From Lachnospiraceae bacterium (GTDB lineage: Bacteria; Bacillota; Clostridia; Lachnospirales; Lachnospiraceae): a stretch of DNA of 53,647 nucleotides. A program made the translations under genes and the position numbers. The stretch spans positions 1-53,647 of the forward strand of contig JAAUZC010000045.1 of assembly GCA_014804795.1 (NCBI GenBank). The letters run 5' to 3'. Position 1 is the first letter of the stretch, and the number at the start of each line of letters is the position of its first letter. Below are positions 10,082 through 45,029 of this stretch, piece after piece. The notes beneath the pieces were generated by a model that saw only the letters and a list, made by a program, of their open reading frames with translations, was not told where the DNA came from and did no database searches.

Positions 10082-10124
10082 TTTTCTCTCCTGTTCCGCT
10101 CCTGCATCAGCCCGATATGCTGAC

Positions 10125-10721
10125 TCACAGTTCTATTCTGCCATCCAATGCCCGCAAAAGCGTTACTTCATCAATATTTTCCAGATCTCCGCCCACAGGT
10201 ACGCCGCTGGCGATCCTCGTCACTTTTATGCCCGCGGGCTTGATCAGTTTGCTTATATACATTGCGGTTGTCTCTCCCTCCAGGGACGAATTTGTGGCAA
10301 TGATCACTTCTTCTATATCATTTTCCAAACGCACCATCAATTCTTTTAATCGAATATCTCCGGGTCCGATTCCCAGCATCGGGGAAATGCAGCCGTGCAG
10401 CACATGATAGACCCCCTCATATTTTCCGGTCTTTTCATAAGCCGCCAGATCTCTGGGGTTTTCCACCACCATAATAAGTTTGTGATTCCTGTGGGGATTT
10501 TCACACACAGGGCAGCACTCCCTGTCCGTCAGGGTAAAGCATTCCTTACAGTAGCGCACATTGTTTCGGGCTTCCGTCAATGTCTTAGCCAGTCTTTCCA
10601 CCCGGTCTTTCGGCATGTTGATAATATAAAATGCCAACCGCCCCGCCGACTTTTCCCCGATTCCCGGCAGAGAAGCCAGTTCCTCAATCAATTTATTGAT
10701 ATTGCCGCTGTAAAGTTCCAT
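10125..10721 (-). CDS. recR: Recombination protein RecR
   Basis: The 198-residue protein has all the parts of RecR: an N-terminal helix-hairpin-helix (LASLPGIGEKSAGRLA), a four-cysteine zinc finger (CKECF and CCPVC around 58-73), a Toprim domain with an IIATNSSLEGETTA core, and a C-terminal Walker-like end. RecR acts with RecO and RecF to load RecA at gaps. The gene overlaps ybaB by one base and has GGAGG within the ybaB 3' end, the classical ybaB-recR coupling. Confidence 0.97.
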   Translation of the reverse strand: MELYSGNINKLIEELASLPGIGEKSAGRLAFYIINMPKDRVERLAKTLTEARNNVRYCKECFTLTDRECCPVCENPHRNHKLIMVVENPRDLAAYEKTGKYEGVYHVLHGCISPMLGIGPGDIRLKELMVRLENDIEEVIIATNSSLEGETTAMYISKLIKPAGIKVTRIASGVPVGGDLENIDEVTLLRALDGRIEL

Positions 10722-11062
10722 CAGAAAGGCAGACCTCCTGTCATCTTGCCCATCAGCTCGCCGTTCGCGGCATCCGCCTGTTTTAACGCTTCGTTTGCCG
10801 CTGCCATGATCATATCTTCCAGAGTTTCAATGTCTTCCGGATCTACGGCCTCTTCGGAAAGTTTTATCTTTGTAATCTCTTTTTTACCGGTCACGGTTAC
10901 TTCCACTGCACCGCCGCCCGCTTTTGCCGTAAATTCCTTTGTCTCCAGTTCCTTCTGGCTCTCCTCCAGCTGGCGCTGCATTCTCTGCGCCTGCTTCATC
11001 AGGTTGTTCATATTTCCCGGCATTCCCATCATACCGCCCGGATAACCGCCTCTCTTTGCCAT
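10721..11062 (-). CDS. ybaB: Nucleoid-associated protein, YbaB/EbfC family
   Basis: The 113-residue protein has the family hallmarks: a Gly/Met-rich start, a long helix (MNNLMKQAQRMQRQLEESQ), the beta-strand VEVTVTGKKEI and the EDLETLEDMI-like C-terminal helix. The family binds DNA as a dimer. It is one base from recR. Unusually, a flotillin gene separates it from dnaX, and a structured leader (11088-11176) precedes its AGGAGG. Confidence 0.95.
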   Translation of the reverse strand: MAKRGGYPGGMMGMPGNMNNLMKQAQRMQRQLEESQKELETKEFTAKAGGGAVEVTVTGKKEITKIKLSEEAVDPEDIETLEDMIMAAANEALKQADAANGELMGKMTGGLPF

Positions 11063-11087
11063 AACACTTCCTCCTAATTATAGTTCC

Positions 11088-11176
11088 GCATCAGGCTTTC
11101 CGGTATCATTAGTGGCAGAGAGATTTCCAGCCGCTCTCACGTCTGTAAATCCTCTGGTTACCGTCCAGCCTGATGC
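11088..11176 (-). ncRNA. Structured leader RNA upstream of ybaB (copy 1 of a two-copy motif)
   Basis: On the minus strand this element folds as one long arm. The closing stem has 10 bp (11167-11176 with 11088-11097), followed by a symmetric GGA/GAA purine loop (11164-11166, 11098-11100) and a 5-bp stem (11159-11163, 11101-11105). Next come a one-sided bulge starting CCAC (11106-11115), 5 bp, a single bulged U (11121) and 5 bp (11122-11126 with 11047+100 to 11051+100, i.e. 11147-11151). GCGGAACT and AGGAGG follow at once. The element upstream of spmA repeats this plan with different paired bases. It is not terminator-like, since there is no T tract. A cis-regulatory RNA is the best reading; I do not recognise a known riboswitch class. 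Confidence 0.65.
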
Positions 11177-11192
11177 TGTTTACAATAAATTG

Positions 11193-11221
11193 ATTCTACC
11201 TCAAAATCCCGTTTTCGTAAA
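11193..11221 (-). promoter_or_regulatory. Probable ybaB-recR promoter
   Basis: On the minus strand TTTACG (11216-11221), 17 bases, TAGAAT (11193-11198) lie between the flotillin stop and ybaB. The predicted start, near 11186, would place the structured element at the very 5' end of the ybaB-recR transcript. The -35 is only a 4/6 match. Confidence 0.5.
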
Positions 11222-21554: not shown

Positions 21555-21722
21555 ATGATACACGGATTGTTTCGTGCTACGCACTCTCACAATCCTGACA
21601 AATATTCGGATATCGCGGGGCACACGCCCCACTTTCATCCTCATATTTGGGCGGGTCATTAAGTCATAAAACCACTTATGTGCAAGCACAACGTGGTTTA
21701 TGACTTTTGCCCCTGGTATCAT
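21555..21722 (-). promoter_or_regulatory. Multi-arm structured leader upstream of the 851-residue gene
   Basis: A 7-bp outer pairing (21716-21722 with 21555-21561) encloses three arms. The first is a long hairpin (21693-21706 with 21661-21675, one bulge). The second is GGGGC/GCCCC (21617-21630). The third is GGATTGT/ACAATCC (21564-21570, 21589-21595), which contains GTGC/GCAC. A 63-codon open frame across this region lacks a ribosome binding site and is not called as a gene. The structure may be a leader RNA or an intergenic repeat element. Confidence 0.4.
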
Positions 21723-30644: not shown

Positions 30645-30833
30645 TAACTGTATCGGGCAGCCTGTTGTTGCTGCCTTTCGTAAGCGGCAATGAAGCCGGG
30701 TCTTACGCAATGGAAATCTGTGAACCGTGTCAGGTTGGGAACAAAGCAGCACTAAACAGAACCTTTCATGTGACGTAAGGAAGCCTGGCAGAGCCGGCTG
30801 CAAAAGTACCGAGCAGCAGGCTGCCCGGTACAG
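30645..30833 (+). ncRNA. ffs: Signal recognition particle RNA
   Basis: The apical S-domain hairpin reads GTCAGGTTG-GGAA-CAAAGCAGC (around 30730-30752), with the symmetric CAGG/AGCAG loop that binds Ffh. The three base pairs next to the GGAA tetraloop differ from the E. coli UCC/GGA but remain paired (UUG/CAA). The 5' part TATCGGGCAGCCTG pairs with CAGGCTGCCCGGTA at the 3' end, closing a rod of about 185 bases. A T7 tract follows directly and ends transcription. It is longer than the minimal 4.5S form and shorter than Bacillus scRNA. Confidence 0.92.
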
Positions 30834-43669: not shown

Positions 43670-44188
43670 TTAGCCCAAGAATACAATGACCATACTCGCC
43701 ACAATGCCGACGGCGGTTGCGAGGAGTGCACCGGGCAGCGTCCATCTTGTTTTTTTCACTTTCGCCGCCATATAATAGACGCTCATTGTATAAAAACAGG
43801 TTTCCGTACAGCTCATCATAATAGATGTCAAAAGTCCTGTACGGGAATCCGGGCCATACTGCTCGAAAATATCCAACACCAATCCGGTGGCTGCCGACGA
43901 GGAAAACATCTTAATAAATACAAGCGGAACAAATTCCGCACCAATCCCTATTTTCTCTGTCAGCCCGCCAAAAAGACTTCCGAGCAGCGACAGAAAACCG
44001 GAAGCGCGAAGCACACCTACCGCTATCATCAGCCCCACCAGTGTCGGCATTATGTTCACAACTGTTTTTAACCCATCCATGGCTCCTTTTACAAAAGCGT
44101 CATACACATCCGTCCTATTTAATACGCCATTCAGCACAATATAAAAAATAACTGCAGGGATAATGATTACCGAAAGCCTCATCAACAT
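43670..44188 (-). CDS. spmB: Spore maturation protein B
   Basis: The 172-residue protein has five predicted membrane segments and the SpmB motifs MDGLKTVVNIMPTLVGLM and FSSSAATGLVLDI. In Bacillus, SpmA and SpmB are needed for full dehydration of the spore core. It overlaps spmA by 7 bases. Confidence 0.95.
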   Translation of the reverse strand: MLMRLSVIIIPAVIFYIVLNGVLNRTDVYDAFVKGAMDGLKTVVNIMPTLVGLMIAVGVLRASGFLSLLGSLFGGLTEKIGIGAEFVPLVFIKMFSSSAATGLVLDIFEQYGPDSRTGLLTSIMMSCTETCFYTMSVYYMAAKVKKTRWTLPGALLATAVGIVASMVIVFLG

Positions 44189-44766
44189 CCGTTTTTCCTC
44201 CCATACCGCATCTTAATATAGAGAATTCCTGCCAGCGTGGAAAAACAGGTTGCAAGAATTGCCGGCAAAATAATACCGGACGGGTTGGAGGATCCATATT
44301 TTGTCCGGTAAACGATCATATTGACCGGAATAAGCTGCAATGACGAAATATTTAAGATCAAAAAGGCACACATTGCATCGCTGGCTGTTTCTCTATTCCC
44401 GTTTAATGCGGACAATTCCTCCATTGCTTTTAAGCCCGCCGGTGTGCAAGCCCACCCCAGTCCAAGAATATTCGCCACAAGATTTGTCGCAATATAGCCT
44501 CTCGCCGGATGATCCGCCGGTACGTCGGGAAACAGAAAACTGATAAACGGCTGCAGTTTATTTGTAAACTTTTCTATCAGTCCCGCTTGTCCCGCAATTT
44601 CCATTAATCCTACCCAGAGCGCCATTGCCCCGGCCATCGTGATGCACAATGTCACTGCTGACTCCGCATATTCCAGACAGGCATTGGAAACGGCCTCCAT
44701 ATTACCGGTAAACAGAGCATAAACGATTCCAATGAGAAGCATGCCCGCCCAAATGTAATTTAACAT
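44182..44766 (-). CDS. spmA: Spore maturation protein A
   Basis: The 194-residue protein has several membrane segments and the SpmA hallmarks ANILGLGWACTPAGLKAMEEL and CAFLILNISSLQLIPVN (nucleoside recognition/Gate-type fold). Together with spmB it points to a spore former. TAGGAGG precedes the ATG, and the structured element at 44792-44887 precedes that. Further upstream a GTCAAGTT...GCATAAAGAT pair (near 44935-44965) faintly resembles a sigma-E promoter, the class that drives spmAB in Bacillus; that match is weak. Confidence 0.95.
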   Translation of the reverse strand: MLNYIWAGMLLIGIVYALFTGNMEAVSNACLEYAESAVTLCITMAGAMALWVGLMEIAGQAGLIEKFTNKLQPFISFLFPDVPADHPARGYIATNLVANILGLGWACTPAGLKAMEELSALNGNRETASDAMCAFLILNISSLQLIPVNMIVYRTKYGSSNPSGIILPAILATCFSTLAGILYIKMRYGRKNGC

Positions 44767-44791
44767 CTGTTGTCCTCCTATTTGAAGTTCC

Positions 44792-44887
44792 GCAGATTCT
44801 CTTCCAGCACACCTTTGTGGAGCTTACATTTACGGCTGTCAAAAAACGCCATCCGTAAATGAAGCTGTGCGCTGTCCGAGAATCTGC
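44792..44887 (-). ncRNA. Structured leader RNA upstream of spmA (copy 2 of a two-copy motif)
   Basis: On the minus strand the 10-bp closing stem (44878-44887 with 44792-44801) is followed by GGA/GAA (44875-44877, 44802-44804). An 8-pair stem comes next, with one A-C mismatch (44867-44874, 44805-44812), then a one-sided bulge starting CCAC (44813-44820). Five base pairs follow (44862-44866, 44821-44825), then a single bulged U (44826), 9 bp (44853-44861, 44827-44835) and a loop. GCGGAACT and AGGAGG follow. Every element matches the ybaB leader, while the paired bases differ and stay complementary. A duplicate GCGGAACT lies just upstream (44892-44899). There is no T tract. Confidence 0.65.
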
Positions 44888-45029
44888 TGTTAAAGTTCCG
44901 CTGCGCGACGGCTCTTTACATCTTTCTCTATATCTTTATGCGCCTGTCCGGGAAAACTTGACCATTATTTTTCCGAAGGCTCACCAGAGGACTTTTCATA
45001 CGGAAGCCACTCGAAATTTATTACCGCAC

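Follow-up and report, generated by a model that had tools for sequence, protein, structure and literature searches.

Bacterial interspersed repeats are usually viewed as DNA parasites, and for the ERIC and Correia elements we know of no placement at start codons. The BOX and RUP repeats of Streptococcus pneumoniae are described as interspersed, parasitic and now slow to insert (Croucher et al. 2011, PMC3049150), and a role in translation is suggested for the TAACTGA repeats (MacGregor 2015, PMC4679880). Here we describe a folded repeat of Lachnospiraceae that sits flush with Shine-Dalgarno sequences. The starting point was the window, a stretch of 53,647 nucleotides from the 3.45-Mb genome of a gut bacterium (G000), in which a first-pass annotation had proposed a new class of cis-acting RNA from two copies, one in the ybaB leader and one in the spmA leader; eight sister genomes of the same genus (among them G001-G005, G007 and G008) were compared with it. 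The structured RNA element is real and covarying, and we propose with moderate confidence that its copies, interspersed units of about 107 nt that often stand in tandem, form a lineage-specific repeat family acting as RNA, as insulators of the ribosome-binding site or as intercistronic spacers.

Results

Both structures were confirmed in the leaders of the window, with the 10-bp closing stem, the 3x3 purine loop, the second stem, the one-sided bulge, the bulged U, GCGGAACT and AGGAGG all present as annotated (Table 1). The minimum free energies are -44.4 kcal/mol (z -5.1) for the ybaB leader and -51.9 kcal/mol (z -6.6) for the spmA leader, and 0 of 200 shuffles folded as well; since the plus strands at both leaders also fold well (z -6.0 at ybaB and -3.8 at spmA), the strand cannot be told by folding alone. 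The judgement that neither copy is terminator-like agrees with the stem being followed by GGAACU and the Shine-Dalgarno sequence, with the U-run absent, and an intrinsic terminator was rejected on this ground. Both copies sit between a promoter-like block and the Shine-Dalgarno sequence. As compared by eye, the TTTACG-17-TAGAAT pair of the ybaB leader, a putative promoter, recurs in five of the eight same-genus ybaB leaders, all without the element, while among the same-genus spmA leaders GCATAAAGATATA is found in six of eight and GGTCAAG in three of eight; the GGTCAAG..GCATAAAGATATA block may be sigma-E-like.

Table 1. Coordinates of the repeat copies and of the features around them (window positions unless a contig is given)
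Feature	Position	Strand	Basis and remarks
Element copy, ybaB leader, one full unit	11075..11181	-	R1, 113.4 bits, E 1.8e-31
Outer stem arms, ybaB copy	11167-11176 + 11088-11097	-	
Conserved 3' flank GCGGAACT, ybaB copy	11082..11089	-	sequence
Shine-Dalgarno AGGAGG of ybaB, abutting the element	11070..11075	-	sequence; many arrays with the same offset
Promoter-like pair TTTACG-17-TAGAAT, ybaB leader	11193..11221	-	comparison by eye
ybaB (YbaB/EbfC family)	10721..11062	-	TIGR00103, E 1.7e-24; start 11062
Element copy, spmA leader	44779..44892	-	R1, 96.7 bits, E 1.9e-26
Outer stem arms, spmA copy	44878-44887 + 44792-44801	-	
GCGGAACT remnant 5' of spmA copy	44894..44901	-	sequence
Conserved 3' flank GCGGAACT, spmA copy	44786..44793	-	sequence
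Shine-Dalgarno AGGAGG of spmA	44774..44779	-	sequence
Promoter-like block GGTCAAG..GCATAAAGATATA, spmA leader	44929..44963	-	by eye
spmA (name from the first-pass annotation)	44182..44766	-	ORF; start 44766
Extra-hairpin copies in G000	C10:96085-96195 (L213); C39:45870-46032 (L212)		

Rfam 15 gave no match at gathering score at either copy, and membership of an Rfam family was rejected; annotation that relies on Rfam would therefore not report the element. At E below 10 one weak sub-threshold match, none meaningful, lies near each copy, the sole one at ybaB being the L31-Firmicutes leader (RF03156, 16.9 bits where the gathering score is 33.3, E 0.21) at 11050-11083, which covers the Shine-Dalgarno sequence and start codon and lies off the hairpin. 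The same search at 20 further loci returned nothing but a T-box beside one copy. Other RNAs of the window are a Clostridiales-1 RNA (RF01699, 131.9 bits) at 21556-21721 on the minus strand and a large SRP RNA (RF01854) at 30648-30833 on the plus strand. The spmA product gave no match in an NCBIfam scan at 1e-10, and spmA matches are present in 10 of 12 genomes. The gene encodes 194 aa in the window, whereas in five same-genus sisters the match is 627 bases (209 codons) long; the G003 match is split in two, and the spmA versions differ by some 15 aa in an internal stretch.

A DNA search of G000 with the ybaB leader found 29 places. A covariance model (R1), built from a MAFFT alignment of 21 copies with the structure from RNAalifold, gave at least 97 matches in this genome at E up to 0.01, from 150 candidates scored, and these group into 77 arrays, each with one to three units detected. 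The unit length is about 107 nt; the matches reach at most 171 bp, and none of them is a version carrying its own gene. Many arrays are preceded by an apparent truncated unit ending CGGAACT-nn-AA, and the remnant 5' of the spmA copy is likewise read, from its sequence, as the end of an upstream unit that is truncated. There are also short "mini" forms, which have little beyond the outer stem. The G000 contig C22 and contig C59 of G291 end within an element array or at its edge, and the repeat may therefore break up assemblies. The C22 array runs off its contig, which leaves 76 arrays with a visible 3' side.

The consensus starts 5' with AA-CAG and an outer stem of about 10 bp, followed by a G-N-A/G-N-A internal loop and the second stem; the inner part has a third stem with a frequent bulged U, a terminal hairpin and a one-sided bulge of about 8 nt, and the 3' end is CGGAACT-nn-AAT, then the Shine-Dalgarno sequence. 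Position counts were taken from 72 near-full-length G000 copies. The claim that the unpaired parts are the conserved ones stands for the flanks, which are the most conserved unpaired parts of the element: C-A-G before the stem is kept in 71, 71 and 72 of the 72 copies, the G being the first stem base, and GGAACT after it in 66, 69, 64, 69, 70 and 64. The latter counts are quoted from the model alignment because the placement, accessibility and anti-Shine-Dalgarno scripts locate the tail by a pattern that fixes some of its letters by construction. For the loops the claim holds only in part. The 5' side of the internal loop is GGA in 38 copies, GAA in 13 and GTA in 11, and its 3' side GAA in 33, GCA in 12, GGA in 10 and GTA in 7; the bulge most commonly starts CCG (39), with CCA in 11 and CGG in 9, and 51 copies have the bulged U. 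The outer stems vary, with 50 distinct 5' arms in 72 units, and the interiors resemble each other more closely. Outer-stem pairs 10/201 and 11/200 have G-A (12) and A-G (21) as their most frequent non-standard cells, which could, judging from the letters, form tandem G-A pairs. The copies before rpoC and a leuC-like gene have an extra hairpin, TGCATCG..CGATGCA, just 5' of CGGAACT (Table 1).

Compensatory change with pairing kept, proposed at first from two copies, was found over all 21 copies of the plain MAFFT alignment (A2) used for the shuffle test. At its 32 pairs 95.1% of the cells pair, against 82.1% in shuffled alignments and 28-45% when slid by 1-3 columns, and double-sided changes occur at 20 of the 32; on each of five measures none of 500 shuffles comes up to the real alignment, with the caveat that related sequences can exceed shuffles. 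The first-pass annotation had named many hits in leaders with covarying stems as support for a new class and an Rfam match as its refutation; such hits were found, and Rfam gave no match at gathering score.

The G-U and A-C cells bear on the strand. In the unfitted A2, G-U cells stand to A-C cells as 34:6, and in the alignments fitted to the model, a fit that prefers G-U cells to A-C ones and inflates the ratio somewhat, as 117:31 (A4, 72 G000 copies), 59:1 (A5, 31 G007 copies) and 107:24 (A3, 80 rows from named contigs). These are cleaned counts, from which rows below 95 nt, opposite-strand duplicates and identical rows were taken out (72 of 79, 31 of 41 and 80 of 97 rows kept for A4, A5 and A3); with those rows in and identical ones merged, the counts are 124:33, 59:3 and 122:26. 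At pairs that are mostly Watson-Crick they are 19:6 (A2), 63:31 (A4), 32:1 (A5) and 107:24 (A3), and at one second-stem pair most copies of G000 and G007 have G-U. Action as duplex DNA would predict about equal numbers of G-U and A-C cells; the excess of G-U together with the conserved G-U pair therefore indicates selection on the sense strand, as RNA, the copies being related and the samples thus not independent.

In 71 of the 76 arrays the tail is followed after 6-34 nt by an ATG that opens an ORF of 45 or more codons on the same strand, against 607 of 2758 random sites (22.0%), and when a 5/6 Shine-Dalgarno match is added the counts are 58 of 76 arrays and 72 of 2801 random sites (2.6%), the control sites being on the same strand of the same loci. 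An earlier script likewise placed 71 of 76 starts in this range. Within 0-40 nt of the other side of the arrays, read on the opposite strand, there is an ORF start in 5 of 76 and one with a Shine-Dalgarno sequence in none. The leftover arrays have a start codon nearby by eye, for example a TTG at C44:5384; in a few of them the tail was misplaced by the script or the Shine-Dalgarno sequence is weaker. AGGAGG is the commonest run at positions 7-12 behind GGAAC (42-53 of 76 at each position), and copies at C9:48492, C4:4691 and C20:33078 are without a separate Shine-Dalgarno sequence. In G007 an ORF start lies within 60 nt in 27 of the 28 arrays examined, which come from the best 30 of 66 matches. 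The array at C44:57818 (L058) stands before a short ORF, some 34 codons long (MKGYTTSQGYMGWTGSGYMLFASEREYREYMEE), which may encode a small protein.

ORFs were called by script, without a gene finder, and an NCBIfam scan of 70 of the 76 downstream proteins assigned a family at E up to 1e-10 to 56, some of them below the curated cut-off. The genes include rpoC, valS, nusA, dnaG, clpX, a ClpB-like ATPase, frr, smpB, secD, rsmE, adk, purA, purE, a pgk, tpiA, a transketolase part, argD, asd, aspartate kinase, hisC, a LeuC-type subunit, pyrI, rnfA, rnfC, uppP, gpsA, aroB, pdxT, deoC, larB, spoIIAB and genes of SpoIIE- and SpoVAC-like proteins. Most of them seem to lie inside operons. No common pathway was found among the proteins scanned, which argues against a metabolite riboswitch. 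In another species (L107, 6493-6901, minus strand) a T-box leader with terminator is followed by an element copy and then by the Shine-Dalgarno sequence of a pheS-like gene, which we take to be pheS.

In folding calculations the cost to open the stretch from the Shine-Dalgarno sequence to the start codon is 2.79 kcal/mol with the real element, 3.77 with a shuffled one and 2.12 without the element; the site is thus harder to open with the element than without it, and the real element is cheaper than the shuffled in 61 of 73 arrays, which are related and not independent samples. At spmA the real element gains little over shuffled ones (9.06 against 9.62).

Orthologues of ybaB and spmA were found in all eight same-genus sisters, and by eye the element is absent from both leaders in every one. 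R1 agrees with the empty leaders in the sister regions scanned and has no match anywhere in G002 and G004. Both window copies are, by this comparison of sequences, insertions. When the 76 G000 downstream proteins were compared with 29 of 30 G007 loci, four sites (C9:2892, C39:2636, C2:65621 and C2:14269) were filled in G000 and empty in G007, and eight were filled in both with different units, orthology being less sure at two of the eight because the proteins are only 65% and 76% identical. Between the eight outer stems of G000 and G007 there are 14 double-sided changes that keep pairing, or 10 without the two less sure sites. The stems are imperfect in places, three of the eight compared G000 stems pairing at 7 of 10 positions. 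At C10:223005 there is a mini form in one relative, one full unit in G000 and two units in Acetatifactor muris, and in the gap behind recR, G001, G005 and G008 carry a unit, G003 gives a weak match and G000 keeps a decayed trace. Interiors have a mean best identity of 0.821 within G000 and 0.781 to G007 at equal sample size. The filled and empty sites, the differing units and the within-genome likeness of the interiors indicate that sites are gained, lost and rewritten. The trace in G000, between recR and the next gene at 10082-10124 on the minus strand, reads GTCAGCAT..GATGC..GCGGAACAGGAG, and three sisters have a full and a partial unit in this gap.

Copies occur in seven of the nine same-genus genomes (G000 and six of the eight others) and in none of 22 outside the genus, with 69 matches in G001, 13 in G005, 15 in G008, 66 in G007 and 0 in G002 and G004. 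Scans with strict filters and nine candidates scored per genome, whose counts are lower bounds, gave matches in 9 of 397 genomes and 8 of 334 genera at family level and, among 392 genomes at order level, in G000 and one marginal same-family genome (E 8.4e-4). The model also matches in Acetatifactor muris DSM 23669 and other Lachnospiraceae. Of 114 contig stretches found by pattern, some of which are likely chance hits, 80 were scanned with R1; 67 match, 57 of them with a match of at least 95 nt. Occurrence in phages was rejected: the 17-base pattern was present in four viral contigs, with no model match in the DNA scanned, and a few chance hits are expected by a rough estimate.

Nothing examined as a partner tracks the copy number. 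A Y1 transposase does not (69 matches and no Y1 in G001, 13 and none in G005, 0 matches and four Y1 in G004), nor does a reverse transcriptase, for which the draft genomes of G001 (69 matches) and G008 (15) gave no RVT_1 match, nor CsrA, encoded in all nine genomes including the copyless G002 and G004; IS200/REP transposase, reverse transcriptase and CsrA were accordingly rejected as tracking partners. Target-site duplication over the 76 arrays is at control level except for one of 27 bp. This direct repeat flanks the two-unit array C15:12874-13086 (L010 1571-1788) and contains the upstream gene's end and the next gene's Shine-Dalgarno sequence; the G007 version is imperfect.

Discussion

The first-pass annotation had suggested a ligand- or protein-binding RNA. 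A ligand-type regulator is unlikely, since the downstream genes are without a common pathway and none of the eight sisters has the element in its ybaB or spmA leader, and the reading is weakened further by the tandem, truncated and mini forms, by the between-species differences at one site and by the merely partial conservation of the GGA, GAA and CCAC loops. In the insulating repeat family that we prefer, each unit would, after transcription, fold on its own and wall off the RNA upstream, leaving the A-rich linker, the Shine-Dalgarno sequence and the start codon nearly unpaired. With the ribosome-binding site left in this way, an insertion into an operon gap or a 5' leader would keep the next gene translatable, and the unit would act as a ribosome-binding-site insulator or an intercistronic spacer, as the folding energies suggest. 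Copies without the arrangement that spares the ribosome-binding site would be lost. The family would spread and then expand, shrink or exchange interiors as repeats do. Insulation alone does not account for the strict orientation, since a hairpin in reverse might also insulate.

A global translational regulator is improbable in our view and less favoured than the insulating repeat family. In this case an RNA-binding protein or other factor would recognise the G-N-A loop and CGGAACT and control dozens of core genes, and the 3' strand of the third stem could occlude the Shine-Dalgarno sequence in an alternative fold. Such a fold is possible in that this strand is complementary to the Shine-Dalgarno sequence, at about -6.1 kcal/mol with its own one compared with -2.8 to -4.0 for other windows, and at -5.5 with a generic one in 83 copies of other species. 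In 36 of 74 arrays the best complementary 9-mer starts within positions 63-69 of the final 106 nt, and the high conservation of the flanks and the presence of the GGA binder CsrA in every genome of the genus set are in line with a bound factor. However, no co-variation of the strand with its own Shine-Dalgarno sequence was detectable, permuted ones pairing as low in 286 of 2000 permutations, CsrA is also encoded in the two genomes without matches, some target genes differ between sister species, and the predicted default fold leaves the Shine-Dalgarno sequence largely free.

We give about the same low credence to a purely parasitic DNA repeat, MITE- or REP-like, in which the hairpin would serve transposition and the position at start codons would only be where insertions survive. 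The between-species insertion differences, the tandem and truncated copies, the within-genome similarity and the single 27-bp flanking duplication at C15:12874 are what such a repeat would leave. It fits poorly with the opposite array side, where no ORF start with a good Shine-Dalgarno sequence occurs, with the G-U excess and the conserved G-U pair, which favour one strand, and with the double-sided changes at sites common to G000 and G007; Y1 transposase correlation and general target duplication are also missing.

Somewhat less credible is an element of mRNA processing or stability, the interrupted helix being cut or protected by an RNase so that mRNA levels within one operon are separated. 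A same-strand ORF of at least 90 aa ends within 150 nt upstream of 66 of the 77 arrays, an upper estimate from script ORFs, and ERIC and Correia repeats are reported to bring cleavage by RNase E or RNase III (PMC3049150). But the element is flush with the Shine-Dalgarno sequence, closer than processing would need, and it is also found behind the promoter-like block of ybaB itself and behind a T-box. Quite improbable, and the least likely of these readings, is a mobile RNA module that targets ribosome-binding sites, inserting only 5' of Shine-Dalgarno sequences in one orientation and holding a conserved anti-Shine-Dalgarno strand in its own third stem. A single translational on/off device would then govern dozens of core genes, those of RNA polymerase, a tRNA synthetase and primase among them, with the gene set rewired per species.

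The family combines strong sense orientation, a place beside the Shine-Dalgarno sequence before core genes and covariation at the RNA level, and raises the question of how an insertion can find a ribosome-binding site. If the proposed function holds, it would be a natural portable insulator for operons, and a repeat would rewire how essential genes are translated or coupled in their operons from one sister species to another. Among the literature matches listed, none describes the element in its title or the beginning of its abstract.

With MITE- and BOX-type repeats the element shares many copies, insertion differences and folding; general target duplication was looked for and not found, and the element is therefore set outside any named repeat family. 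The likeness to BOX and RUP lies in many interspersed copies, in length (107 bp for RUP), in folding when transcribed and in the modular build of BOX, one BOX composite with T boxes inviting comparison with the copy behind the T-box in L107 (PMC3049150). In contrast to BOX and RUP, the element stands beside the Shine-Dalgarno sequence in one orientation, has the G-N-A loop, the CGGAACT flank and extensive compensatory change, and belongs to another lineage. The ERIC and Correia elements are likewise folded repeats that enter transcribed regions and may bring RNase sites (PMC3049150). Many sets of the TAACTGA repeats of marine Beggiatoaceae also lie directly 5' of start codons and mostly in one orientation, but they are heptamers overlapping the expected ribosome-binding site, with a Shine-Dalgarno sequence in about 10% of such intergenic regions, while the element is a long folded unit beside it (PMC4679880). 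The TAACTGA repeats appear to be without a fold. Overall, the comparison suggests that the element would work most like the folded repeats of the BOX and RUP type, and that in its placement it most resembles the TAACTGA repeats.
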